Source: Deltaproteobacteria bacterium (GTDB taxonomy: Bacteria > Bdellovibrionota > O2-12-FULL-43-9 > JACQJE01). Taken from it: a stretch of 11,733 nucleotides of DNA. Where the stretch lies: positions 1 through 11,733 of the forward strand of contig JACQJE010000030.1 of the NCBI GenBank assembly GCA_016205125.1. The letters run 5' to 3'. The notes beneath the pieces were generated by a model. It worked only from the letters and a program-made list of their open reading frames with translations, did not search any database and was not told the DNA's origin. Both the position numbers and the translations under genes were made by a program. Shown piece after piece: positions 788 to 11,733 of this stretch (the stretch's first letter is position 1; every line of letters starts with the position of its first letter).

Positions 788-2200
788 CTACATCGATGCT
801 GCTTTGTCCTGCGCTGCGGGGGTACCACCCGCAGACTCCTTCATTCCGCCTTTGAGCAGCATCCACGTTTTGAGATAGTTGTAAGCCTGCTGGAGTTGGA
901 AATCGCTTTCCAAATCGGCGAGCTGTTCTTTCTTCCGCTCACCCTTTTCTTCTTTTTTCGGTTCTTGCTTAGGCTCCTTCTTCATTTCTTCTGGTTCTTC
1001 TCCATTTTCAATATGGTGAGGAAGATCCCGTTCGCGCTGCATGCGAAGTTTTTCGGCCTTTTTCTGTTCGGTTTTAAGGAGTGACATATCGATCTGCTCG
1101 ACGACGACATCGGGGGTAATCCCCTTTGCCTGAATCGAATGGCCATTGGGTGTGTAGTATTTTGCGACGGTGAGCTTCAGTGCAGATTGATCGGTCAATT
1201 CGATCACCGTCTGGACAGAGCCTTTGCCAAAAGTCGGTGTTCCGACCACCAGGGCGCGTTTGTGATCCTGCAGTGCTCCTGCGACGATTTCTGAGGCGCT
1301 GGCAGAAGCGCCGTTGACCAGAACGACCATCGGGAAACCACTGTAGGTCTTCTCTTTGTGAGCATAATGAATCTCTTTTGATTTCCCTTTTCTTCCAACG
1401 GTAGAGACAATGACCCCCTCGCGCAGAAAGAGATCGGCAACTTCTACAGACTGGTCGAGAAGCCCTCCAGGGTTATTCCGCAAGTCAAGGATGACCCCCT
1501 TAAAACCTTTTTTGGATGTCTTGTTCTTAAGCACCTTTGTCAGGTCATCTGTTGTCTTTTCGTTAAAGGTCGAGACTTTGGTATAGAGAACCCCGTCTGG
1601 CAAGTCTGCTTCCTTGATACTCTGAATCCGGATGATTTCACGCGTGATGGTAAAGTCTTTCGGCTCTTCAAATCCCTCCCGCACAATGGTCACAGTCACC
1701 CGCGTTCCTTTCTTGCCGCGGAGTTTGTTGACCGCTTCAATGATGGTGATCCCCTGAGTCGAATCCCCGTCAATCTTCACAATTTTATCGCCCGCCTGAA
1801 TACCCGCTTGCCAGGCGGGGGTATCTTCTATAGGGGCCACAATGGTCAGCACATCGTCACGAATGGTGATTTCAATTCCAAGCCCGCCAAATTCACCTGA
1901 AGTGTCTCCTTTCATCTGTTTAAAGACATCGGGGGGAAGAAAATTGGTATGCGGATCGAGCGTGGCGAGCATCCCCTTAATACCGCCATAAATCAGATCC
2001 TTTGAGTTGACCTCATCAACGTAGTTCTGTTCGACGTAATAGAGGACTTTGGCAAAGATATCGAGTTTTTCGTAAGCATCCTGAGAGACGGCAAAACTGG
2101 AGCGGTTGGTCATTCCATAGATGTAAAACACTGCGGATGCAACGACCGCTCCGATGAGAACACCCTTGATCTGGCGCATTTTGATCGCAATTTTTTTCAT
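788..2200 (-). CDS. ctpA: S41 family C-terminal processing peptidase (CtpA/Prc type)
   Basis: Periplasmic, membrane-tethered serine protease that trims or degrades proteins from their C-termini. The 470 residues comprise a basic N-terminus and one hydrophobic helix (about 13-30, an uncleaved anchor or signal), an N-terminal helical region, a PDZ domain (about 103-190, GGLGIEI to GDKIVKIDG) and the S41 catalytic core. The Ser-Lys dyad is visible: S301 in NGASASASEI and K326 in TFGKGSVQ, with Q330 four residues on, as in CtpB-type enzymes. After about residue 372 there is an unusual tail very rich in Lys and Glu (about 375-427), then a short helical end. The start is supported by a purine-rich GAGAGAAGG upstream; Met8 is an alternative. 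Stop is TAG, which shows that amber terminates here, because read-through would run antisense into the dehydrogenase gene. It lies 71 bp downstream of the subtilase gene on the same strand, so co-transcription is likely. Confidence 0.95.
   Translation of the reverse strand: MKKIAIKMRQIKGVLIGAVVASAVFYIYGMTNRSSFAVSQDAYEKLDIFAKVLYYVEQNYVDEVNSKDLIYGGIKGMLATLDPHTNFLPPDVFKQMKGDTSGEFGGLGIEITIRDDVLTIVAPIEDTPAWQAGIQAGDKIVKIDGDSTQGITIIEAVNKLRGKKGTRVTVTIVREGFEEPKDFTITREIIRIQSIKEADLPDGVLYTKVSTFNEKTTDDLTKVLKNKTSKKGFKGVILDLRNNPGGLLDQSVEVADLFLREGVIVSTVGRKGKSKEIHYAHKEKTYSGFPMVVLVNGASASASEIVAGALQDHKRALVVGTPTFGKGSVQTVIELTDQSALKLTVAKYYTPNGHSIQAKGITPDVVVEQIDMSLLKTEQKKAEKLRMQRERDLPHHIENGEEPEEMKKEPKQEPKKEEKGERKKEQLADLESDFQLQQAYNYLKTWMLLKGGMKESAGGTPAAQDKAASM
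814..834. repeat. Perfect 7-bp inverted repeat inside the 3' end of the S41 protease gene
   Basis: CTGCGGG (814-820) pairs with CCCGCAG (828-834) around a 7-base loop that itself contains GGTACC. It lies just past the convergent gene ends, about 45 bases beyond the dehydrogenase stop. No T-run follows on either strand, so it is not a standard intrinsic terminator. It could still end or protect the dehydrogenase message. Confidence 0.4.
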
Positions 2201-2220
2201 GGCCCGCCTTCTCTCAGAAA

Positions 2221-2241
2221 TGTGAACGATTTCGTTTCACA
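2221..2241. repeat. Short imperfect inverted repeat between subtilase and S41 protease genes
   Basis: TGTGAACG and CGTTTCACA form a stem with one bulged T around a 4-base loop. It lies in the 71-bp gap upstream of the S41 gene. It could be a weak transcript hairpin or an operator. There is no U-tract, and the half-site spacing does not match the CRP consensus. Confidence 0.35.
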
Positions 2242-2271
2242 AATGTAACATAAGGAGTTGTGTTCGACAAG

Positions 2272-3648
2272 TTAATTACCTGTTCCAGTTGCATGTCTGA
2301 AGGCGTTTTCGACGTCGAGTACCCCGGATGAAACGACGCTTTCATTGAGACTCGGCACTTTGCGTACTGACTCGATGAGGATCCGCTTCAGTTGATCATA
2401 CGTCAGATCTGGAACCGCGGACCAGACCAGTGCTGCGGCGCCAACGACGTGAGGTGTTGCCATCGAAGTGCCGCTCAGAAGCTGGTAATCGTTGTTGGGT
2501 GTTGTGCTCAGAGTGTCGACTCCTGGTGCAGCCAAATGAACAGATTGTTTCCCATAGTTGGACCACGATGCGAGTTTGTCATTCTGATCTGTAGCCGCGA
2601 CGGCGATAATGTTGTCAATCTTGTAGCTGGCTGGATAAGAGGGCTGGCTGTCGATATTATTCCCGCTGTTTCCTGCGGCCGCGACAAAAAGGACGCCCAT
2701 CTTTCGTGTCTCTATGATTGTATCTTCGAGCGCTTTGGAATAGGAACCCCCACCCCAGCTATTGTTGAGAACCCGTGCGCCATTGAAGGCGGCGTATTCA
2801 ATCGCCTTAATGGCATTGTTTGTTTTGCCAGAACCCTTGTTGTCGAGGAATTTCACTCCCATCAGGAGGATCCGGGGGCTGACACCGATGGTCCCTTTTC
2901 CGTTTTCACCCACAGCGCCAATGGTGCCGCTGACGTGCGAACCGTGCCGGTTGTCATCATAAGGGAGAGGTTCATTTGCTACAAAGTCCCACCCCACTAA
3001 ATCGTCGACATAGCCGTTATTATCATCGTCGACCTTATTATCTGGAATCTCTTTCTCATTGCGCCAGAGGTTGTAGGCCAAATCTTCGTGGTTGTAGTCA
3101 ATCCCTGTATCGATGATCCCTACAATGACATCATGGCTCCCCATCCAGGTTGGCCATACTTGTGGAGCGCGAACGGTCTTGACACCCCAGGTCTGTCCAA
3201 AGAGGGGATCTGCTTCACCATTTGGCTCGCCGGGAGCTGGATTGAGTGCTGGTTTTTTTGACTTTGCGGGCGGAAAGAAGCCGGCAAATGCATATTGATA
3301 GTAATTGGGTTCCGCATATTCGATATTGGGGTTGCGCCGAAGTTTCAGGAGCGCTTCTTTGATCGACATCCGCGTCCGCAGAGTCACTAGCGAAAGATCT
3401 GCGACCATAAAATCCGATTCTACCGAAGCGGCTTCGATGTCAGAGAATGTGGAAAGGATATCAGAAGAGCGAATATCCCCGCGCCACTTGATAAAGATCT
3501 GCTGGTCCACATAAGGGAGGATCCAGCCCTCCACATTGATGTCATGATTCGCATTGGTGAGCGAGGATGAATAGAACTGTTGAAAGACTAACCCAAGGAC
3601 AAAGAGGCTCAGTACAGCTGAGCCTGCGGCAATATATTTTAACTTCAT
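2272..3648 (-). CDS. Exported subtilisin-like serine protease (S8 family) with N-terminal prodomain
   Basis: Secreted endoprotease made as a pre-pro-enzyme, 458 residues. Residues 1-25 are a signal peptide or anchor (MKLKYI followed by a hydrophobic stretch). Residues about 38-120 look like an inhibitory prodomain of the fervidolysin/I9 type (ending NIEYAEPNYYQYAF), followed by a Pro-rich linker. The S8 catalytic domain runs from about 150 to 455 with a full triad: D180 in GIIDTGID, H235 in NRHGSHVSGT and S395 in LSGTSMATPH; oxyanion Asn327 is in AAAGNSG. An Asp/Asn-rich stretch at 207-216 looks like a calcium-binding loop. The start is fixed by a strong AGGAGGA ribosome site seven bases upstream. 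There are no C-terminal appended domains. Its pairing with a downstream S41 protease suggests an envelope or extracellular proteolysis operon. Natural substrates are unknown. Confidence 0.96.
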   Translation of the reverse strand: MKLKYIAAGSAVLSLFVLGLVFQQFYSSSLTNANHDINVEGWILPYVDQQIFIKWRGDIRSSDILSTFSDIEAASVESDFMVADLSLVTLRTRMSIKEALLKLRRNPNIEYAEPNYYQYAFAGFFPPAKSKKPALNPAPGEPNGEADPLFGQTWGVKTVRAPQVWPTWMGSHDVIVGIIDTGIDYNHEDLAYNLWRNEKEIPDNKVDDDNNGYVDDLVGWDFVANEPLPYDDNRHGSHVSGTIGAVGENGKGTIGVSPRILLMGVKFLDNKGSGKTNNAIKAIEYAAFNGARVLNNSWGGGSYSKALEDTIIETRKMGVLFVAAAGNSGNNIDSQPSYPASYKIDNIIAVAATDQNDKLASWSNYGKQSVHLAAPGVDTLSTTPNNDYQLLSGTSMATPHVVGAAALVWSAVPDLTYDQLKRILIESVRKVPSLNESVVSSGVLDVENAFRHATGTGN

Positions 3649-4054: not shown

Positions 4055-4741
4055 ATGAGAGACAATAGGGAAGGAAACAAAGGATTCATGAGAGAAAGAG
4101 CGCCGAAAATTGCTGAAGAGGGCCCATTTTGTCACCGCACGCTGAGAGGCCGCATGATATTTTTTCTGGCCACCCTTTCCTTCTTTGCCGCGCTCTTGCT
4201 CCCCCTTTTCGAAGGGTGGGCCGGCGGGCGTGCCCGCATTGTGGAAGAGTTGCTTTCCGTCCTGATGCGGAAGCAATCTGCGGCGGCGGTGAGCGCAACG
4301 ACCTTCGCGCCTTCCCGCCTCGTCCTCGAACGGTCTCTATTATTACGGCAATTTGGACCAGAGATTCTGATGGAAATGGCCAGAGGGAGTCACTGGACGC
4401 TTTCTTCTGAAGATCAGAGATTGATTGAAGAACTACAGAAGATTGTCCTGCGGGAGGATAATATTTACGCGCTTCGCATCTGGACGCAATCTGATCCCGG
4501 TCTTTACCAACAGCTTCTTCCTGATCTGCGGAGTTTTCTTGACCTCGATTCCCCTCCTTCCAAACTCCTTTCCATGGAAATAGGGGATGAAGAACTTCCG
4601 GTCGACCTGCCGGAAAGTGCAGGGGGTCCTATTCGACGCTTGCTGGCCACCTTGCACCACCCAAAGAGTTCTCCACAGGAGCGCTCTCAGAGTGCACGTG
4701 AGCTTGGAAGCTTTAAATATCAGGAAGTGCGCATTTCATAG
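4055..4741 (+). CDS. N-terminal part of the giant protein, or separate 228-aa membrane-associated protein ended by TAG
   Basis: No named family is recognised. The 228 residues begin with a basic segment of about 33 residues, then a hydrophobic helix (about 34-52, from RMIFFLATLSFF to LLLPLFEGW). This could be a long signal peptide or a single membrane anchor with the C-terminal side predicted outside. The rest is helical and mostly soluble; the end (about 205-228, QSARELGSFKYQEVRIS) looks like the first half of a HEAT-type repeat. The frame then meets TAG at 4739-4741, and the same frame continues directly with LETVRSEISSRNPNSYVLSAALGSL, which reads like the other half of that repeat. I therefore suspect this is the 5' part of the downstream giant gene, interrupted by a nonsense codon, and not an independent gene. 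It has a good ribosome site and a sigma-54 promoter upstream. Confidence 0.75.
   Translation: MRDNREGNKGFMRERAPKIAEEGPFCHRTLRGRMIFFLATLSFFAALLLPLFEGWAGGRARIVEELLSVLMRKQSAAAVSATTFAPSRLVLERSLLLRQFGPEILMEMARGSHWTLSSEDQRLIEELQKIVLREDNIYALRIWTQSDPGLYQQLLPDLRSFLDLDSPPSKLLSMEIGDEELPVDLPESAGGPIRRLLATLHHPKSSPQERSQSARELGSFKYQEVRIS
4739..4741 (+). other. In-frame amber codon splitting the giant reading frame
   Basis: TAG is the only stop in 2559 codons of one frame from 4055 to the window end. The next codons (CTT GAA ACG GTG) continue protein-like sequence at once. The S41 gene in this window also ends in TAG, so amber is a normal stop here and wholesale reassignment is unlikely. The remaining options are a nonsense mutation, a sequencing error, translational read-through, or a true boundary between two genes. 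Confidence 0.85.
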
Positions 4742-4822
4742 CTTGAAACGGTGAGAAGTGAAATCTCTTCACGGAATCCCAACTCGTATGTGCTGAGTGC
4801 CGCGCTGGGCTCTCTTACGGGC

Positions 4823-7800
4823 ATGGTCGATCAGTCAGTAAGCAAAGAGCTGGAACAACTCCTTTCTCTATTTAACGAAAAGATCACGGCCAACTGGAAG
4901 CCACATGTTGAATCTCTTTTTAAGGAGGTCATCAGTAAAAGCCGAATCCAGGAAAAAGTCGAACTTGCTTCTTTAAAAGCAGTGAATGGCCCAGAAGGCG
5001 AAGGGGATAGTCTTGATGAGCAACTGATGCATGCAGTGGATCAAGGGTCACTCTCCCGGGAAGCTGGAGGTGTCTTTAGAGCAGGAACGGGAAGATTTTT
5101 GTCCGATGAATTGATGGCGTGGGAAAGAAAAGGGACGCATCCGGAGATTACAGGAAGAGAGAGGGAGGTGCAGCGTGTACTGGAGGTGCTGGTTCGTCTC
5201 AAAGCTCGTGTGCCTGTGTTGGTAGGACGGGCTGGAGTCGGAAAAACCGCTATTGCGGAGACATTAGCCCTTAGGATAGCTGAACGCAGGTTGCGCGACA
5301 ATATCGTTCTTGACAGAGAATTTCCGAAAGGTTCTGTCGTGATTCAAACTACCCCGGGCAAGATTTCAGAGCTGGCGCGTTCAAATGATCCGACATCACA
5401 GGCCGTTGCCGTTGAGAATTATATACGTTCGATCAAAGAGGTTGAAAAGGCACTTGGCGTCACCATTGTTCTCTTTGTCGACGAGTTCCATACATTCAGC
5501 CGGGCTCAGTTGAACGCTTTGAAACCCTTAGTTGAGGATGTCGATGGCGTGCGAATTGTGGGAGCCAGTACGCCGGGTGAGTTTGAATTGTCCCTGGACA
5601 ATGACAATGCCTGGAGACGCCGTGTTGAAGCTGTAAATGTATCGGAGATGAGCGAAGAGCAGACACTGGAAGTCATCAAAGAGGGATGGCTGGATGTTTT
5701 GGAGCAGCGTTATTTTGTGAAGTTTACCGGGGACGAACTCGTAGATGTCTTACGACTAGCGCAAGAAGTTTACCCCGATTTAGCTCGCCCGAGCGCACAG
5801 ATTAAGTTTTTGGACGCATTGGCAGCCTATACGAGTACACGGGAAGAGAAGACGAATCAGGAGATTGAGATTGGTGTCGAGGCAGCAAAAGAGTACGCAT
5901 CGATCTTGACCGGCATACCGATCAATCCGCGTAAGCCGCAGGAGCTGATGCCTTATATTGAAAAGGGACGATCAGAGTTAAAACGACGTGTTGTGGGTCA
6001 GGATCATTTGGTGGACGCCTTAGTCAATCTCTGGCAGCAGGTGATGACAGGAGAGCCGGGTAAAGCGGCTAAGTCAGCAGTCATAATAGGTACGACGGGT
6101 GTTGGTAAGACACTCATTGCGAAGCAGTTGGGTGAGGTCTTTTTGGGTAGTCGCGAGAAGGTTTTAACCATTGATGCAACGGCCTTCCAGACAGGTGATT
6201 TGTCGCTGAATAGTCTGATTGGAGCCCCTCCTGGAGTGATTTCGAGCGATAAGAGAAAAGGGGTTTTGCCAGAATGGTTAAGTGGACCGGGTAAGCAGGC
6301 GGGTATCATTATAATTAACGAGTTTGATAAGGCTCATCCGGATTTTGCGAAGCGGCTTATGGAAATGCTGGACCAAAAAACACTTACAGCTGGAGACGGA
6401 AGAGAGTATCGATTATCCAGACATTTGATTGTTTTCACAACAAACCGCGGCGCAAACCGGGTTTTTGATCCGAAGCTTGGCAAGTTCCTGAGTACGGAGG
6501 AGATGAGCAGGAGAGTAGAAAACATTACTCCGTCGCAGGCCAAGAGTTTCTTTACAGAGTCTGAAGGGTATGCATCGAGAGATGCCGGCCGCCTGCCGCC
6601 AGAGGTGGTCAACCGGATTGATGCGTGGATGGTCGCAAAACCGCTCACGTTTGAAGATGCGGTCAAAATTGCCGAAATCGAGATAACGCAGTTGACAGAG
6701 AGTCTCTTAGAGCAGCACGGCTTCAAAGTAGCGTTTAGCCAGGACTTAATCCGCCGTATTGTGGAGCAGAGCTTTACAAGAACGGAAGGCGTCCGGGATG
6801 TTAAGCAAGCCCTTGAGCGGACATTTAACGAAGTGCTGGGGGCGATTTGGAAACATGTGGAAAATGTGGAGCGGAGTGAGTTTGCTGTTGAGATTCATGA
6901 CGAGAGGGAAAAAAGCTTATTACGCGTGATTGATAAGAAGCAGGACGATCCTGTTGTGGTCGAAGTACCCTATCATACGCCGCCCAAATTTATGGCCATT
7001 CAGGACCCCCGATTTATGGAAATACTCAGCCATCTGGGAGAAAGGCTGCGGGGTGAAATATATGGTCAGGATGAGGCCATCGAGACGATTGTGCGGGCCG
7101 TTCGACGCCGCGCTGCTATGCCTGGCTCACGACCACTCTCAATAGGGTTGTTTGGTCTGACCGGGACTGGCAAAACTGAGATTGCGAAGTCGTTAGCGAA
7201 GTATCTGTATGGTGGTGTTGAAAGAGCGCGTATTCTTTCCTTCGGGAAGATACAGGAGAAGTTTGATCTTGCCAATATCTTCAATCCACCCAAGGGTGTT
7301 CAGGGCAGTGATGAGATCAGTGAGTTTGAGCGTATACTGCAGAGTTTTGGAGAAGAGGGTGGAGTCATTGTCTTTGACGAGCTTAGTAATATGGGCAAGG
7401 GGCGTCATCCGCATGAGCGATCAGCCTTATTTATGCAGCTCTATGAGATCTTTGAAGAAGGGGAATGGACCAGTCCGCTCGGCAAGACATATGACCTCTC
7501 CAAATTTACCATTATCTCAACCGGTAATGATGGGGAACATCTATTCAGACAACAGCCGAACGAAGATCTCAAACTCGCCGTGTGGGAGCAGATGCATAGC
7601 CGCGATCGCATTGTTCAGATTTTGCTGGATTCCCATATACCAGAGGCATTTATCAATCGGATGGATGCGCTTGTCCTGATGCGCCCGACTGGAAGCCATG
7701 TACAGGGTGAGATTGTTCGGAAATTCATGCGTGCAGTTCAAACAGAGTTTGAAAGAGAATATAACATTTCGATTATCTTTGCGGATGATCTTATCGAGAA

Positions 7801-10800
7801 GATATCACAGGCATTTTTCCCGATTCAGGAAGGCGCACGAGCTGCGCGAAGGTTTGTAGAAGAAGAGGTGAGCGGACTGGTTGCCGAACTCATCATGGCG
7901 CATCAAAGTGACATTGCGAAGGCTGAGGATCGGATTGAGCTTCACGTGACGCTTGAGTTAGATGCGCCTGAGAAGCCATGGGCTGTCGAGCGCGTCGAAG
8001 CTGCTAAGGGGATATTGCGAGTAGAAGCGAAGCTGGATAGGGGAGTGGTTCGGGAAGAGCGTGAAGTGAGGCCCATTTCGTTACCGAATCAGGTATCCAG
8101 AGAAGATGCGAGACGTACGGCTATCCATGAAGCGGGTCATGCCCTTGTGAATGAGCGATTAGGTCAGCCGCGCGGTCGCCTTGAGTGGATTACAATTGCC
8201 CAGGCTGGAGATGCCGGTGGTTATGCACGATTTAAAGGGCATGAAAGCGGTGTTCATACACGACAGGGCGTGCTTAATGAGCTCGCCGTGATGGCGGGGG
8301 GGATGATGGCGCAGGAACTGCGCGGTATGGAGCGGGACTCCGGCTGGCAAAGAGATCTTCAGCAGATGCGTGCCTTGGCACAAAAAGCAATCCTGCAATA
8401 CGGACTCTCCTCTGAACTCGATGCTCTCCCGAATTTAGGCCATGAAGAGGGTCTCTCGCAATTATCTGCAGATCAAAGAGAGAGGGTAAATACCGAGATC
8501 GAGAAATTGATGACTGAGGCCAAAGAGTTGGCTCGGCAGGTTTTGTCCGCAGAGGGCACTGAGCAGTTTCTTAATGACCTTGTTGAGAGACTTCTCCAGG
8601 AGGGATCCCTTAAAGGCGGGACCGTTTCCGAACTCCTCGCAGATGAAAAAGTGGAGAGTAAAGAAAAAGCCGTGACTGAGCAGCAGTCTCCTTTCCCTCC
8701 TGAACACAATGATGAATCTCCGGCAGGGACCAAAGAATCGAGATCTGAACAGTTTTTATCTCCAGCCGATCTGTCTGATGCAATTGAGAGGAACCGGCAC
8801 CGGGTCGCCGAGTTCGAATTCTTAGCCGAAGAAGCCGGGAAACTGGGCGTTCGTCTCTGGCTCTTTGGCGGCACTGCGGCTGGGTTTGCCCACTATGTTT
8901 ATTGGGATCTGATGAGAGAGCGGGGTGTGGAGAGCTTGCCGGAAGAGCGTTTTGATTATGACTTTACGAACATCTACCGCTCCACACAGGATGCCGATCT
9001 GGCGATTGATGGAATCCCTGAGCAGGCCGATCAGTTAGAAAGATCCGTGCGGGAGAAATTCCCCCATCTCCAAGGCAATAAATCGGTCTGGGAGATTCGA
9101 ACCCTGCGGAAGAAAAACGGCGGCAATCGCATCCCTATTCTTGGAAGAGAGGCTTTTGATTTTCAAAACCAGCATACCGATTCAAATTCAACGGGTTTGA
9201 TTGAGCTGACCCAATCAACGGAACCGGTCGTTCGGGATGCAAGAGACTGGAGTGCGGAAGAATCAAACTTTTTAAGGGATGTCGCAACTCGAACCCTTCA
9301 CTATTACGACTCTAAAAAACATGAAGAGACCTCGCGTGCCCGTGAAGGGAAGAATCCTCCGATTGTCTCAGTCATTCGCTACCTCACGAAGATCTTCCAG
9401 TTTGAACTTAAGATTCCTCAAGAGAGTCTGAAGAATTTGAAGAAGGTGATAGAAGCGTTTGATCCTGCAGAGCTTAAGAATGATTATGTGAGACACTGGA
9501 TGGAGAAGAATGCGAAGAAGCTCATCCTGAATGCGGTGGACGTTGAGTACGCAATCGAGACACTGGGTGAGCTGGGTCTGCGCGAGAAGCTCATTGCTCT
9601 TGGAGATAAAAACGAGCCGCATACGATGGCCTGGTGGCTGAATCGGGAGCCCCTGGCGGGAAAACCCCTGGGGCAGGGAGAAGGGAAGACCATGAATGAT
9701 CTTGTTCGTGAAGGAGAGATCCAGCCCGATCCGGATCGTGGAAAAGTAGTTGCTGCTCATGAGACTTTTAGCTTCCTCGCCTATGAGACGATGACCCATC
9801 ATCCCGCCGGCAAGCCCAATGCACTTATTTCCCGGCAGGGCATTCCGGGGGAAGCAGCTGCCTATGGAGATGGATTTTATACACGTATAGGAAGTTCAGG
9901 TGCGCGAGGGACGGGATTGACGGTTCGATATGAAGTCGAGGGTCGTGCCAGAGAGGGAGTCGATTTTGAGCGCAATGGCGATTTCCTGATCTTCAGGAAC
10001 AAAAACGCCTTAAAAGTCATCCCTGAGATCCTCACGATGACGCCCGGGGAGTATGCGGATCTCATTACGAACCCCCAGTTTAGCGCAGAAGGAAGTGATC
10101 TGGCGGTTTATCTGCGACTCAAGCGGCGCATTTTTAACCAACTCTCTGCATCCTCTCAAGATCAAAGACAAGCATGGTTTAAGCGGCTAAAAAAGGCGAA
10201 TCTTACTTTTTCCAAACAACGGTTTGAATTCATTGTGGCTCTTGGGAGTGATTCTATCAAAGAATATATCGCGGTCGCTCAGGCGGGAGATAGAGTTGCG
10301 GGGATTGAGTACGTCTTTGGAGAGGGGGTAGAAGATGCTCAAAGTGCTTTAATCGAGCAATTTGCAGGTGAGGAAGTTGATGCGGAGACTGAACTGGCCT
10401 TAACGAAGCGCCTTTATCGAATTGGCACAGAAGGGGTAGTGAAGTTAGCTAGAAGCACAAATGTGCAAGCTTATGTGGCTGCGTATCTTAATGTGGCAAA
10501 TTCAGAGATGGCGATTGGGAGAACGCTTTCTCTCTGTCTCCATTCGGGGGCAGAGGAATATCGCGCGTTCGGAGAAGATCTCTTAGCCCGCCTGGAAAAT
10601 TCTGATTGGAAGGATGCGCCAGTTGTTGCGGCCTATCTTGACATTGCAAGAATCGGCCAGCAGAGGTCTGCTCCTTTTCCAGAAGCGGCAAAAGAGTGGC
10701 TGACCCGTGCCGATGTGATCCCAGAGATCAAAGCTCAATTCTTGCTCTCCAATTTGGGAGTTGAGGTTTCTGGAGATTCTCAGCCGAATCCATCGTCTCA

Positions 10801-11733
10801 CTCATCCCCTCTCCCCTTTGTGGGAGAGGGAAACATATCCTCCCCCCTCGAGGGGGAGGATAAAGGTGAGGGGGCTCCTCTCTACGTCCGCTATCGGGAT
10901 TCCATGCCACAAGCTGAGAGAGATGCAGTCCTGAAAGTCATCGACGAAAAAACGAATCTATTCCTCTTCGAAAAACTAGCAAAAGAGCAGGGGGAGCAGC
11001 TGCTTCGTCGTTTTTATGAAGTGGCGAAAGCGGAGAGTTTTCTCTATATCCCGTTCGAATTTCCGAAGAAAGGGAAGCAATTTCGCATGGGTAAAGGGGA
11101 TGGGGCTCACGATGTTGTCCTTACCCGGTCATTTGGCATGCAAGCGACCCCTTTTACACAGCTGCAGGTGGCTCTTCTGTTAGGCGAAAATCCATCTCGT
11201 TTTAAAGATACGGGGGCGATTTGGATCATTAATAGTAAAGAGATGAAGATTGATGCGAACCGGCCAACAGAAAGTATCTCGCACAACGACATCCAAGAGC
11301 GCATCATGGTGAAACTAAATGAGATTGACCCACGCTATCAGTGGCGACTTCCGATGGAAGCGGAGTGGGAATATGCCGCGCGTGGTGGAACAGATACGGC
11401 TTACTCCTTTGGGGATGACAGCACAAAACTTTTTCAATATGGGTGGTTTAGTGAAAACTCCGACGGGAAGACGCAAGAAGTGGCGAGGTTGAAACCAAAC
11501 GCTTTTGGTCTTTTCGATATGTATGGACTTGTTTGGGAGTGGTGCCAAGACTGGTATGGGGATTATCCCAAAGAAAAAGTGGTGGATCCGCAAGGCCCGA
11601 AAACAGGCTCGTACCGCGTTTTCCGTGGCGGCGGTTGGCACTCCGCCCCGGGGCTCCTGCGGTCGGCTGCCCGCAACTACTACGGGCCCGCTATCCGCCA
11701 TGGCGGCGTTGGCCTTCGTGTTGTGAGGACTTA
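4823..11733 (+). CDS. Giant multidomain protein: three Clp-type AAA+ modules, M41 protease, NTase-like and ART-like regions, C-terminal FGE/lectin-fold domain (3' end at window edge)
   Basis: The frame is open from 4742 to the final base; the last full codon is ACT and the next begins TA, so the stop probably lies one base outside. The start is uncertain: 4823 is the first ATG after the TAG and 4751 a GTG, but neither has a convincing ribosome site, and protein-like sequence begins right after the TAG, so the true start may be 4055. Counting from 4055 (amber as residue 229), the order is HEAT-like helices, AAA+ modules at about 365-630, 637-950 and 986-1300, an M41 zinc protease at 1348-1529, a nucleotidyltransferase-like region at 1585-1720, an ART-like region at 1894-2000, a helical linker to about 2340, and an FGE/SUMF1-fold domain at 2343-2559. 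I do not recognise a named protein with this architecture. A likely role is ATP-driven remodelling and proteolysis controlled by a C-terminal recognition domain, which is inference. Confidence 0.9.
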   Translation, partial: MVDQSVSKELEQLLSLFNEKITANWKPHVESLFKEVISKSRIQEKVELASLKAVNGPEGEGDSLDEQLMHAVDQGSLSREAGGVFRAGTGRFLSDELMAWERKGTHPEITGREREVQRVLEVLVRLKARVPVLVGRAGVGKTAIAETLALRIAERRLRDNIVLDREFPKGSVVIQTTPGKISELARSNDPTSQAVAVENYIRSIKEVEKALGVTIVLFVDEFHTFSRAQLNALKPLVEDVDGVRIVGASTPGEFELSLDNDNAWRRRVEAVNVSEMSEEQTLEVIKEGWLDVLEQRYFVKFTGDELVDVLRLAQEVYPDLARPSAQIKFLDALAAYTSTREEKTNQEIEIGVEAAKEYASILTGIPINPRKPQELMPYIEKGRSELKRRVVGQDHLVDALVNLWQQVMTGEPGKAAKSAVIIGTTGVGKTLIAKQLGEVFLGSREKVLTIDATAFQTGDLSLNSLIGAPPGVISSDKRKGVLPEWLSGPGKQAGIIIINEFDKAHPDFAKRLMEMLDQKTLTAGDGREYRLSRHLIVFTTNRGANRVFDPKLGKFLSTEEMSRRVENITPSQAKSFFTESEGYASRDAGRLPPEVVNRIDAWMVAKPLTFEDAVKIAEIEITQLTESLLEQHGFKVAFSQDLIRRIVEQSFTRTEGVRDVKQALERTFNEVLGAIWKHVENVERSEFAVEIHDEREKSLLRVIDKKQDDPVVVEVPYHTPPKFMAIQDPRFMEILSHLGERLRGEIYGQDEAIETIVRAVRRRAAMPGSRPLSIGLFGLTGTGKTEIAKSLAKYLYGGVERARILSFGKIQEKFDLANIFNPPKGVQGSDEISEFERILQSFGEEGGVIVFDELSNMGKGRHPHERSALFMQLYEIFEEGEWTSPLGKTYDLSKFTIISTGNDGEHLFRQQPNEDLKLAVWEQMHSRDRIVQILLDSHIPEAFINRMDALVLMRPTGSHVQGEIVRKFMRAVQTEFEREYNISIIFADDLIEKISQAFFPIQEGARAARRFVEEEVSGLVAELIMAHQSDIAKAEDRIELHVTLELDAPEKPWAVERVEAAKGILRVEAKLDRGVVREEREVRPISLPNQVSREDARRTAIHEAGHALVNERLGQPRGRLEWITIAQAGDAGGYARFKGHESGVHTRQGVLNELAVMAGGMMAQELRGMERDSGWQRDLQQMRALAQKAILQYGLSSELDALPNLGHEEGLSQLSADQRERVNTEIEKLMTEAKELARQVLSAEGTEQFLNDLVERLLQEGSLKGGTVSELLADEKVESKEKAVTEQQSPFPPEHNDESPAGTKESRSEQFLSPADLSDAIERNRHRVAEFEFLAEEAGKLGVRLWLFGGTAAGFAHYVYWDLMRERGVESLPEERFDYDFTNIYRSTQDADLAIDGIPEQADQLERSVREKFPHLQGNKSVWEIRTLRKKNGGNRIPILGREAFDFQNQHTDSNSTGLIELTQSTEPVVRDARDWSAEESNFLRDVATRTLHYYDSKKHEETSRAREGKNPPIVSVIRYLTKIFQFELKIPQESLKNLKKVIEAFDPAELKNDYVRHWMEKNAKKLILNAVDVEYAIETLGELGLREKLIALGDKNEPHTMAWWLNREPLAGKPLGQGEGKTMNDLVREGEIQPDPDRGKVVAAHETFSFLAYETMTHHPAGKPNALISRQGIPGEAAAYGDGFYTRIGSSGARGTGLTVRYEVEGRAREGVDFERNGDFLIFRNKNALKVIPEILTMTPGEYADLITNPQFSAEGSDLAVYLRLKRRIFNQLSASSQDQRQAWFKRLKKANLTFSKQRFEFIVALGSDSIKEYIAVAQAGDRVAGIEYVFGEGVEDAQSALIEQFAGEEVDAETELALTKRLYRIGTEGVVKLARSTNVQAYVAAYLNVANSEMAIGRTLSLCLHSGAEEYRAFGEDLLARLENSDWKDAPVVAAYLDIARIGQQRSAPFPEAAKEWLTRADVIPEIKAQFLLSNLGVEVSGDSQPNPSSHSSPLPFVGEGNISSPLEGEDKGEGAPLYVRYRDSMPQAERDAVLKVIDEKTNLFLFEKLAKEQGEQLLRRFYEVAKAESFLYIPFEFPKKGKQFRMGKGDGAHDVVLTRSFGMQATPFTQLQVALLLGENPSRFKDTGAIWIINSKEMKIDANRPTESISHNDIQERIMVKLNEIDPRYQWRLPMEAEWEYAARGGTDTAYSFGDDSTKLFQYGWFSENSDGKTQEVARLKPNAFGLFDMYGLVWEWCQDWYGDYPKEKVVDPQGPKTGSYRVFRGGGWHSAPGLLRSAARNYYGPAIRHGGVGLRVVRT
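5141..5940 (+). other. AAA+ module 1 (ClpA/ClpB D1-like)
   Basis: Starts ITGREREVQRVLEVL, as in ClpB/ClpA D1. Walker A is GRAGVGKT (5225-5248) and Walker B is LFVDEFHTF (DE codons 5480-5485). The sensor region VRIVGASTPGEF is followed by AWRRRVEAV, which corresponds to the D1 arginine-finger segment. The ClpB middle coiled-coil domain is missing: the linker goes straight to TGIPINPRKPQELMPY, as in shorter Clp ATPases. The D1 pore-loop Tyr (KYRG in ClpB) has no counterpart here. Confidence 0.88.
5960..6905 (+). other. AAA+ module 2 (ClpB D2-like) with Walker B Asp to Asn change
   Basis: RRVVGQDHLVDALV is the typical D2 entry. Walker A is GTTGVGKT (6089-6112). Walker B reads IIIINEFDKAHPD (N codon 6317-6319) where ClpB D2 has LLDEVEKAHPD, so the magnesium-coordinating Asp is Asn while the catalytic Glu is kept. 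The pore loop is GAPPGVIS in place of GAPPGYVG. The arginine finger region LPPEVVNRIDAW and the sensor-2 helix EGVRDVKQAL are present. Confidence 0.88.
7010..7960 (+). other. AAA+ module 3 (second ClpB D2-like copy)
   Basis: Begins GEIYGQDEAIETIVRAV. Walker A is GLTGTGKT (7154-7177) and Walker B is VIVFDELSNM (DE codons 7376-7381), both intact. The arginine finger region IPEAFINRMDALVLM and sensor-2 EGARAARRFVEEE match the Clp D2 small domain. The pore loop is PPKGVQG with no aromatic residue. A third Clp module on one chain is unusual, since ClpA, ClpB and ClpC have two. Confidence 0.88.
8096..8640 (+). other. FtsH-type M41 zinc metallopeptidase domain
   Basis: RRTAIHEAGHALV carries the zinc motif HEAGH (8126-8140). 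Later, SGWQRDLQQMRALAQKAI and QYGLSSEL align with the FtsH segment TGASNDLKRATELAR and EYGMSEKLG, so the third zinc ligand Asp is kept (codon 8354-8356). The end, LLQEGSLKGGTVSELL, resembles the last helix of FtsH. Catalytic residues appear intact. The AAA+ module in front is of Clp type and lacks the FtsH second region of homology, so this protease has been joined to a foreign motor. Confidence 0.88.
8804..9210 (+). other. Nucleotidyltransferase-fold-like region
   Basis: VRLWLFGGTAAGFAHYV (GG codons 8867-8872) followed by STQDADLAIDG (Asp codons 8990-8992 and 8996-8998) has the GG...DxD arrangement of the DNA polymerase beta-type nucleotidyltransferase fold, as in AbiEii-like enzymes. The gap between the two motifs, about 40 residues, is longer than usual. 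A third acidic residue was not identified with certainty. Function is uncertain. Confidence 0.5.
9734..10050 (+). other. Region loosely resembling ADP-ribosyltransferases
   Basis: The order ALISRQGIPG, YGDGFYTR (9863-9886) and NGDFLIFRNKNALKVI (about 9974-10021) recalls the three-part layout of ADP-ribosyltransferase folds, in which a GxGxY-type segment is followed by a strand bearing the catalytic Glu. Here that last strand has Asp (codon 9980-9982) where Glu would be expected. The resemblance is weak, and another beta-rich fold is possible. Confidence 0.3.
10798..10880. repeat. Palindromic intergenic-type repeat inserted in frame in the giant gene
   Basis: Two adjacent hairpins are seen. 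CCCTCTCCC (10807-10815) pairs perfectly with GGGAGAGGG (10822-10830). A second palindrome spans 10836-10862, centred on CTCGAG, with one bulged C. It is followed by AAAGGTGAGGGGG. This composition is typical of REP-like dispersed elements normally found between genes. Here it is translated as SPLPFVGEG, then SSPLEGEDKGEG, inside a helical linker, without breaking the frame. Confidence 0.75.
11081..11731 (+). other. FGE/SUMF1-family C-type-lectin-fold domain
   Basis: The C-terminal 217 residues carry the family landmarks FRMGKGDG, WRLPMEAEWEYAARGG, NAFGLFDMYGLVWEWCQDWYG, DPQGPKTGSYRVFRGGGW, LRSAAR and VGLRVVR. True formylglycine-generating enzymes have a pair of catalytic cysteines near the RGGSW/RSxxR region. 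This domain has only one Cys, in VWEWCQDW, and none there, so sulfatase activation is unlikely. The same fold serves as a binding scaffold in many proteins, including DGR variable proteins. Confidence 0.9.
11612..11731 (+). other. Candidate DGR variable region at the 3' end of the gene
   Basis: Framework residues RVFRGGGW, LRSA, R, R and VG-RVV match the C-terminal consensus of lectin-fold variable proteins. At sites where such regions commonly carry Asn (AAC), this gene has CAC, TCC, GCC (11639-11647), CTC (11654), GCC (11669), AAC, TAC, TAC, GGG (11675-11686) and CAT, GGC, GGC (11699-11707). Ten of these twelve end in C, so the changes fall on the first two codon bases, as expected from adenine-specific mutagenesis of AAC codons. 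Positions 11641-11674 contain no A. The template repeat and reverse transcriptase are not in the window, so this is a strong pattern without the partner elements. Confidence 0.6.

Follow-up and report, generated by a model that had tools for sequence, protein, structure and literature searches.

The last 128 bases of the stretch of DNA analyzed here (11,733 nucleotides, hereafter the window) very probably constitute the variable region (VR) of a diversity-generating retroelement (DGR), a bacterial system that scrambles a binding surface on purpose, and one that acts in trans on several genes of the source genome. This VR (11606..11733, forward strand, cut by the contig end) terminates a giant protein combining AAA+ modules, an M41 peptidase and a C-type-lectin tip. 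A preliminary description had proposed from the sequence alone that a DGR diversifies this protein, a proposal now supported by a template-like repeat, by what is probably the tail of a reverse transcriptase (RT) of DGR type and by substitutions that fall on template adenines. Copies of the VR lie elsewhere in the same genome at the 3' ends of two other genes, on contigs C36 and C14, with 81% and 78% identity to the window copy (contig C172), and its delimitation rests on these repeats together with the biases in adenine columns and codon positions described below. Thus, three genes carry the VR at their 3' ends, and the match of the window protein to TvpA indicates a diversity-tolerant fold for the target.

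The distribution of substitutions within the genome itself supports this reading. Among the three VRs, 21 of the 26 columns with a template adenine vary, as against 7 of the 68 columns with other template bases (P=1e-10); resolved by template base, the variable columns number 21/26 for A, 2/29 for C, 5/30 for G and 0/9 for T. The window and C36 copies differ at 16/26 adenine columns and only 2/68 others, and over 28 codons their differences number 9, 9 and 0 at codon positions 1, 2 and 3, respectively, whereas the same count over 220 upstream codons gives 95, 77 and 136; the binomial probability of 0/18 third-position differences is 2.8e-5. The C14 copy is more divergent, the pairs involving it showing four third-position differences each and 7/68 non-adenine differences. 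This divergence, and the presence in the genome of four genes with FGE domains, the fourth of which (C106) is far from the window in sequence (differing at 18/26 and 22/68 columns), would accord with a history free of any retroelement, in which lectin-fold paralogues underwent diversifying selection or exchanged sequence by gene conversion. Neither the preference for template adenines nor the untouched third positions of the window-C36 pair is expected of selection, and an RT tail and template-like repeat occur together, spaced as in relatives; as a sole cause, paralogue selection or conversion is contradicted by all three observations, and we regard it as highly improbable.

The sequence of the tip itself is consistent with a DGR target. 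Residues 2286-2327 of the 2,327-residue frame read ...GSYRVFRGGGWHSAPGLLRSAARNYYGPAIRHGGVGLRVVRT, and both the reading frame and the conserved framework residues are those of the lectin-fold C-terminus that had been described. The depletion of adenine noted there is likewise apparent, this base making up 8.6% of 11606-11733 versus 28.6% of 11400-11605. The hypervariable core, with its codons aligned to template AAC codons, spans 11639..11707 (forward strand) in the comparison of the window, C36, C14 and C204 sequences, its last few codons being placed through the templates of relatives since the C204 template stops before them. About 12 altered codons, mostly ending in C, had been reported; of the 12 window codons that align to AAC or ATC in the template, 11 do have C as their last base, and one has stayed AAC. 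The VR had also been placed at the extreme 3' end of the gene: it is indeed terminal, although its start lies near 11606, not at 11612, and the stop codon is outside the window. Only 'TA' is left after the final ACT, and the C36 and C14 genes run two more codons before a TGA, so the gene must finish immediately beyond the window. The 3' end of the VR, GTTGTGAGGACT (11720..11731, forward strand), is a possible IMH, to judge from the VR and template ends of relatives. At this position the VRs of relatives have (G/T)TGAGGAC in 6/7 cases and their templates end in NTGAG(T/C)AC in all 6 viewed, so that VR ends differ from template ends. As candidates for a downstream hairpin, predicted folds of -27 kcal/mol or lower, a threshold set by the weakest of the nine, follow 9/9 VRs as against 6/150 random segments, with a slight advantage to the VRs from a scan stepped at 1 nt rather than the 5 nt of the control; the window itself stops at its VR.

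An AAC-rich template-like repeat (TR) was found on another contig of the same genome (G000:C204:88-180), lying 11 nt downstream of what is probably the end of a DGR-type RT, a 27-residue tail (RSMIAHISHANSKALRRKELERWNVLA, then a stop) whose gene is cut by the contig edge. This tail was recovered by querying the genome with the DGR RT of a relative (68% identity over RT residues 320-341, E=0.0027), and both tail and spacing match the DGR RTs of the same phylum, four relatives having the identical 11-nt spacing. Of the RT and template repeat for which the preliminary description had recommended a search, the latter is thus represented by a template-like repeat and the former by its tail alone. 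Over the first 94 columns the window VR mismatches the C204 repeat at 19/26 adenine and 9/68 other columns (P=5e-8), the mismatches thus concentrating on adenines, with an imperfect template. The C204 repeat differs from both the window and C36 copies at 8 shared non-adenine columns, which marks it as a sister copy and not as the actual template. A phage origin received no support from viral_contigs, where one exact RT-TR junction pattern (11-nt spacing) gave 0 matches. The sole full-length RT found in the assembly, on C131, was rejected as a DGR RT: it scores 328 bits against TIGR04416 (cut-off 300) and is adjoined by RF00029, identifying it as a group II intron RT.

These features leave a substantial, though not the favored, possibility that the DGR is now dead in this lineage, with a shortened, drifting template and three VRs that persist as frozen products. 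The C204 repeat stops after GGGAACCG, lacking the 3' part present in the TRs of relatives, and its 9/68 non-adenine mismatches with the window compare with 0-1 of 85-92 in six relatives; moreover, neither an RT body nor a match to Avd was found in the assembly, though at 78% completeness the latter absence is weak evidence. Avd is an accessory component that some DGRs lack. The assembly is in 219 contigs and C204 begins within the RT gene, both of which weigh against extinction, as does the near-identity of the window and C36 copies at non-adenine columns, which points to one shared, unseen template; one of their two differences there sits at the edge where the C204 repeat breaks off.

Related genomes of the phylum provide intact counterparts of the DGR proposed here. 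DGR RTs, full-length ones included, occur in 28 of the 290 genomes sampled, with a best match to Brt at E=4.7e-57. The TR-VR comparison was tried on 11 relatives and scored in seven, the anchor pattern finding no TR start in G092, G055, G076 and G174; the scoring that yielded G043, G039, G032, G009 and G027 left out nine loci, namely seven duplicates from the source genome itself (L005-L009, L014, L016) and two weak G029 matches (L013, L015). Six of the seven show 0-1 non-adenine changes: adenine and other columns changed, respectively, at 24/30 and 0/87 in G043, 18/25 and 0/92 in G039, 13/28 and 0/89 in G032, 16/28 and 1/89 in G009, 19/28 and 0/89 in G099, and 19/32 and 0/85 in G204. G027 is the exception, with 10-11/85 non-adenine differences. 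The distance from RT stop to TR is 11-14 nt in 6/7 relatives measured and 18 nt in G043. Comparison at the protein level constitutes weak evidence, because of the six pairs exceeding 70% identity in a set of 25 partner proteins with an FGE domain, two vary more in the VR (P0128/P0142, 12/40 vs 110/1029 elsewhere, P=1e-3; P0041/P0043, 23/40 vs 261/923, P=1.5e-4) and four do not.

The protein that bears the VR is a giant fused open frame of 2,327 residues with a GTG start (4751..11731, forward strand, as are all features that follow), open at the contig end. It contains three Clp/ClpB-type AAA+ modules (5111..7906; domain searches, with Walker A motifs at residues 159, 447 and 802), an M41 zinc-peptidase domain (8093..8629; Pfam PF01434, 3.7e-20; HEAGH at residues 1126-1130), a conserved N-terminal domain of a lectin-tipped partner family (8786..10150) and an FGE/C-type-lectin domain (11096..11728; Pfam and PDB sequence and profile matches). 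The earlier reading of a giant AAA+/protease protein with a TvpA-like fold is thereby upheld, the best-scoring solved structure for the tip being Treponema TvpA (2y3c; 4e-24 by sequence, 2.8e-35 by profile). The Pfam FGE-sulfatase match (residues 2116-2326, E=3.6e-31) could in principle denote the domain of an ordinary formylglycine-generating enzyme whose tail happens to be GC-rich, but TvpA outscores every FGE chain among the matches listed (4e-24 vs 1.5e-16), and the catalytic cysteine pair that FGE carries in its C-terminal core has no evident counterpart by sequence, there being no cysteine in the last 45 residues. These points, together with the VR evidence, make an ordinary enzyme the least credible of the explanations considered. 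The partner N-terminal domain is 48% identical to the separate target protein of G099 over 450 aligned positions, and its family occurs in 9/290 genomes of the phylum, the source genome included. It had nothing above the Pfam cut-off, and a PDB profile search matched the FGE part alone; its motifs GGTA...DLAI and YGDGFYT appear NTase-like. Beyond the phylum, the best segments in the genome_contigs scan (best 80 of 577 loci) are confined to the FGE end (query residues 2068-2327). Upstream, a same-frame open frame with a signal-peptide-like segment (4055..4741) is split from the giant frame by a TAG at 4739-4741; its homologous continuity with P0003 was judged by eye, and BLASTP was not significant.

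Judged from these alignments, the giant protein is a fusion of an AAA+/M41 protease with a lectin-tipped protein that is separately encoded elsewhere. In G099 the two genes are neighbors within a complete DGR cassette comprising AAA+/M41, target, HRDC protein, Avd (NF033474, 108.6 bits, cut-off 80), RT and TR. Of the 30 genomes in the sample that encode the AAA+/M41 protein, some with cut frames, only the source genome was seen to carry the fusion. DGR RTs and AAA+/M41 proteins occur separately in 28 and 30 of the 290 genomes and together in 7 (P=0.016, the RT of the source genome being counted absent). The AAA+/M41 gene adjoins the target in G099 only, of the seven scored relatives, in the stretches fetched; in G204 the lectin beside the protease showed no match to the TR of the same genome, and in G201 protease and FGE genes are neighbors, yet the genome yielded no DGR RT (it falls outside the 28 RT-bearing genomes).

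By the known DGR mechanism, the RT would make errors at adenines while copying a template RNA, and the error-bearing cDNA would replace the VR, so that some twelve surface positions on the tip would be re-randomized with the fold retained; AAC to NNC changes would be unable to create a stop codon. The most likely role would be variable target recognition feeding the unfoldase-protease. Homologues of both halves mostly start with signal-peptide-like segments, suggesting that proteins of this kind, perhaps including the window's own, may be active on the cell surface or inside a second cell. In this probably predatory phylum, one could tentatively envisage a triple AAA+/M41 protease, exported by a signal sequence, that carries or is paired with a lectin tip under continual DGR randomization, and that would thereby sample new protein or glycan targets on prey or rivals, to be unfolded and cleaved. 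We consider this doubtful, as of the seven scored relatives only G099 has the protease next to a VR gene; that the fusion here and the G099 gene pair make protease and hypermutated binder a single machine, which is part of the same idea, is similarly speculative.

Among known systems, the DGR of Treponema denticola resembles that of the window in placing the VR at the C-terminus and in serving several targets, and its target TvpA (2y3c) in the FGE-type C-lectin fold. Unlike TvpA, which is a small surface lipoprotein, the lectin here terminates an AAA+/M41 fusion protein. The BPP-1 DGR (Mtd, Avd, Brt) shares with the present systems the RT family of the relatives, the Avd of G099 and an adenine-directed VR; it differs in having its TR between avd and brt, whereas in the relatives the TR directly follows the RT stop, and the sources here are bacterial contigs rather than a phage record. 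To our knowledge, the events that follow binding by a diversified tip have been worked out for few DGR targets. The link between a hypermutated tip and a complete unfoldase-protease, through fusion in the window and through neighborhood in G099, offers a concrete and testable guess.

A metagenome survey recovered >30,000 DGRs by an approach that, by its own account in the part of the study drawn on here, would miss remote targets (Roux et al. 2021, PMC8144416); the present DGR, with its VRs on contigs other than that of the RT tail, is of this kind. FtsH ternary conflict systems, as outlined in the relevant section of their description, combine two FtsH-type AAA+ domains with MoxR and vWA partners, and sister VMAP systems are coupled to DGRs (Kaur et al. 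2020, PMC7159879). The likeness lies in an FtsH-kind AAA+ within a putative conflict system; a Pfam scan covering five window frames detected neither a vWA domain nor a MoxR-specific family. Also comparable are the DGR targets of CPR bacteria and Thiohalocapsa, which are NTPase-lectin fusions, the FGE subtype included, with CLec-AAA cited there as the most frequent architecture in CPR (Dore et al. 2024, PMC10907252). These share with the window protein a lectin VR fused to a P-loop NTPase, but the NTPases in the portions of that account considered here are STAND/NACHT, KAP or MoxR-associated, with no Clp-type triple AAA+ with M41 described.

The giant frame (4751-11731, 2,327 aa) ends in a C-terminal FGE/C-lectin domain (PF03781, residues 2116-2326, E=3.6e-31), for which TvpA (2y3c), a protein diversified by a DGR, is the highest-scoring solved structure (4e-24), 1.5e-16 being the best value among the FGE chains listed; the lectin-fold tip claimed in the preliminary description is thus borne out. 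Its depletion in A is likewise real, adenine making up 8.6% of the final 128 bases against 28.6% just before them. The genome assembly (1.36 Mb, 219 contigs, 78% complete), in which the window is one entire contig of 11,733 nt, contains four FGE genes by PF03781 search, the window's included, and its closest other genome among 59 in the search for relatives shares only its class. A DNA search of the assembly matched the window tail to the 3' ends of two of these genes, on contigs C36 (81%) and C14 (78%), the fourth, on C106, being more diverged.

The C14 tail in turn matches positions 88-180 of contig C204 (E=5e-16), a repeat (GSNRVIRGGNWNNNPENVRPANRNNNRPGNR) abundant in AAC codons and enclosed by an open frame of just 77 aa. 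Over 94 columns, ending where this repeat breaks off and comprising 26 template adenines and 68 other bases, the window mismatches it at 19/26 adenines and 9/68 other bases (P=5e-8), C36 at 20/26 and 9/68, and C14 at 16/26 and 7/68. Among themselves, the three variable regions (VRs) vary at 21 of the 26 adenine columns as against 7/68 elsewhere (P=1e-10; by template base, A 21/26, C 2/29, G 5/30, T 0/9). In the 28-codon core the window and C36 differ 9, 9 and 0 times at codon positions 1, 2 and 3, versus 95, 77 and 136 in the 220 codons upstream; the remaining two pairs give 10, 9, 4 and 11, 8, 4, with the third position low, albeit above zero. The window and C36 differ at 16/26 adenine columns and only 2/68 others, although 8 non-adenine columns set both of them apart from the C204 repeat; both were therefore probably written by one unseen template, of which the C204 repeat would be a sister. 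The C106 protein (L004 1042-2319) has a diverged tail that misfits the template; its gene differs from the window at 18/26 adenine and 22/68 other columns, a poor fit to the DGR pattern, and is perhaps an old or inactive target.

The template repeat and reverse transcriptase (RT) that the preliminary description had pointed to as companions of such a region were each recovered in part. The C204 repeat shows the expected adenine bias, but also the 9/68 non-adenine mismatches, and it breaks off early, the template repeats (TRs) of relatives extending about 30 nt past this point; the repeat (L049 about 96-190) stops after GGGAACCG, followed by unrelated sequence beside a convergent gene. An RVT_1 search of the assembly yielded a full-length RT of group II intron type alone, which lies on C131 (L001/L053) in an intron with an RF00029 match and an RT/maturase, about 570 nt downstream of a tRNA gene. 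Beside the repeat, however, nucleotides 1-81 of C204, which starts within an RT gene, encode RSMIAHISHANSKALRRKELERWNVLA and a stop, resembling the C-terminal ends of the DGR RTs of two other genomes of the phylum, G009 (RSMIAHVTHANSTRLRRREFEQSLSLA) and G039 (KSMVAHISHADTRELRRKEFERSLNLA). Used as query, the G009 RT retrieved the intron RT and also this tail, which aligns with RT residues 320-341 at 68% identity (E=0.0027). The TR follows the RT stop after 11 nt in C204 and likewise in G009, G027, G039 and G032; the spacing is 14 nt in both G099 and G204, and 18 nt in G043. Elsewhere on C204 are a gene for glutamate dehydrogenase and a frame that we read as RecD-like, and the contig's tetranucleotide profile correlates at 0.84 with the window as against 0.25-0.58 with six loci from other genomes. 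A DGR that is now a relic and no longer active is a serious possibility, though one toward which we do not lean. The VR copies, template-like repeat, RT tail and adenine-biased substitutions support the proposal that the window ends in a DGR variable region, which we regard as very likely.

DGR-like RTs occur in 28/290 genomes of the phylum (BPP-1 Brt query, E<=1e-20). As a positive control, TR-VR scoring was tried in 11 relatives, of which seven were scorable; G092, G055, G076 and G174 were left out because the anchor pattern missed the TR start. Differences at adenines and at other bases are 24/30 and 0/87 in G043, 18/25 and 0/92 in G039, 13/28 and 0/89 in G032, 16/28 and 1/89 in G009, 19/28 and 0/89 in G099, 19/32 and 0/85 in G204, and 23/32 and 11/85 in G027, whose second VR gives 16/32 and 10/85. 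A downstream fold of -27 kcal/mol or lower follows 9/9 VRs examined versus 6/150 random segments; the strong hairpins 3' of the C36 and C14 VRs (L050 about 1565-1610, L051 about 3565-3610) have a common loop, GTCTTTCA, and differing stems. The G099 cassette comprises, in order, an AAA+/M41 protein (1,433 aa), the lectin target (1,056 aa), an HRDC protein, Avd, RT and TR, the third being an HRDC/HhH protein with a RecQ-like C-terminus (L182 12007-12534). Directly shown are the VR family, the template-like repeat, the RT tail, adenine-directed substitution and intact homologous cassettes in relatives.

Residues 1-1290 of the giant protein resemble lectin-free AAA+/M41 proteins about 1,430 aa long (P0003: 45% over 1,301 aligned positions), which have three Walker A motifs and HEAGH, while residues 1352-2327 match the separate G099 target (E=8e-134, 48% across 450 aligned positions; 33% at the lectin end). 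The AAA+/M41 part is found in 30/290 genomes, this one counted (E<=1e-40), and is fused to the partner only in the window, the open frames of the other 29 spanning 496-1,616 aa, some ending at contig ends. The partner adjoins the protease gene in 5/29 neighbourhoods, several of the 29 being incomplete: as partner domain plus FGE in G099 and G204, partner domain in G032 and G283, and FGE only in G201. The adjacent lectin is demonstrated as a VR gene in G099 alone. That of G204 does not match the G204 TR, the scored VR being a different gene; G201 is absent from the 28 RT-bearing genomes; and no AAA+/M41 gene was seen near the DGR targets of G009, G027, G032, G039 and G043 in the stretches examined, which are short upstream. 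These observations weigh against a general protease-DGR link. The partner domain occurs in 9/290 genomes, this one counted, with at most five scored matches per genome. In a large protein database the fused partner half has 302 matching proteins; 26 of the 120 listed carry FGE, the rest having different C-terminal domains or none known. P0061-P0159 form a large family, most members having signal-like N-termini, with a common N-terminal domain of about 455 aa and FGE, ankyrin, HEAT or no known C-termini; for several of them the longest contig has an identical length, which suggests several copies per genome. Within the giant frame, a GC-rich palindromic stretch at about 10790-10880 (CCCCTCTCCCC...GGGAGAGGG, CTCCCCCCTCGAGGGGGAG) coincides with a gap in the alignment to the G009 target and has the look of a repeat element inserted without breaking the frame. 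Upstream on the opposite strand (788-3648) are two more proteases, an S41 with PDZ and an S8 subtilase.

By a crude rule that looks for a hydrophobic run after a basic residue, 87/120 listed partner-family proteins score positive in their first 60 residues, versus 9/120 for residues 61-120, and the N-termini of the AAA+/M41 homologues P0003-P0008 are likewise signal-like by eye. The signal-like segment of the window sits in a separate 228-aa frame (4055-4741) that an in-frame TAG (4739-4741) closes ahead of the giant frame, and hence we only infer export of the giant protein. P0003 and P0004 appear continuous across this region by eye, and BLASTP against P0003 gave no significant match; the TAG may be a genuine nonsense codon, may stem from faulty assembly or may mark an actual boundary between two genes.

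By established DGR biology, mutagenic retrohoming would rewrite the VR and the lectin tip would act as a binder; more speculatively, binding by the tip might steer the AAA+/M41 part to substrates. The novelty lies in the fused protease context of the VR. Our literature search, with subscription journals mostly and supplements wholly outside its reach, found nothing on DGRs with Bdellovibrionota or with Clp and M41, and in the match checked for Bdellovibrio or predatory bacteria DGR occurs solely in the reference list. As far as the portions consulted describe them, the FtsH ternary systems (Kaur et al. PMC7159879) differ in having MoxR and vWA partners, none of which was seen in the five window frames scanned, whereas the sensor-NTPase DGR targets in the consulted part of Dore et al. 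(PMC10907252) resemble the proposed arrangement of a binder joined to AAA+/M41.
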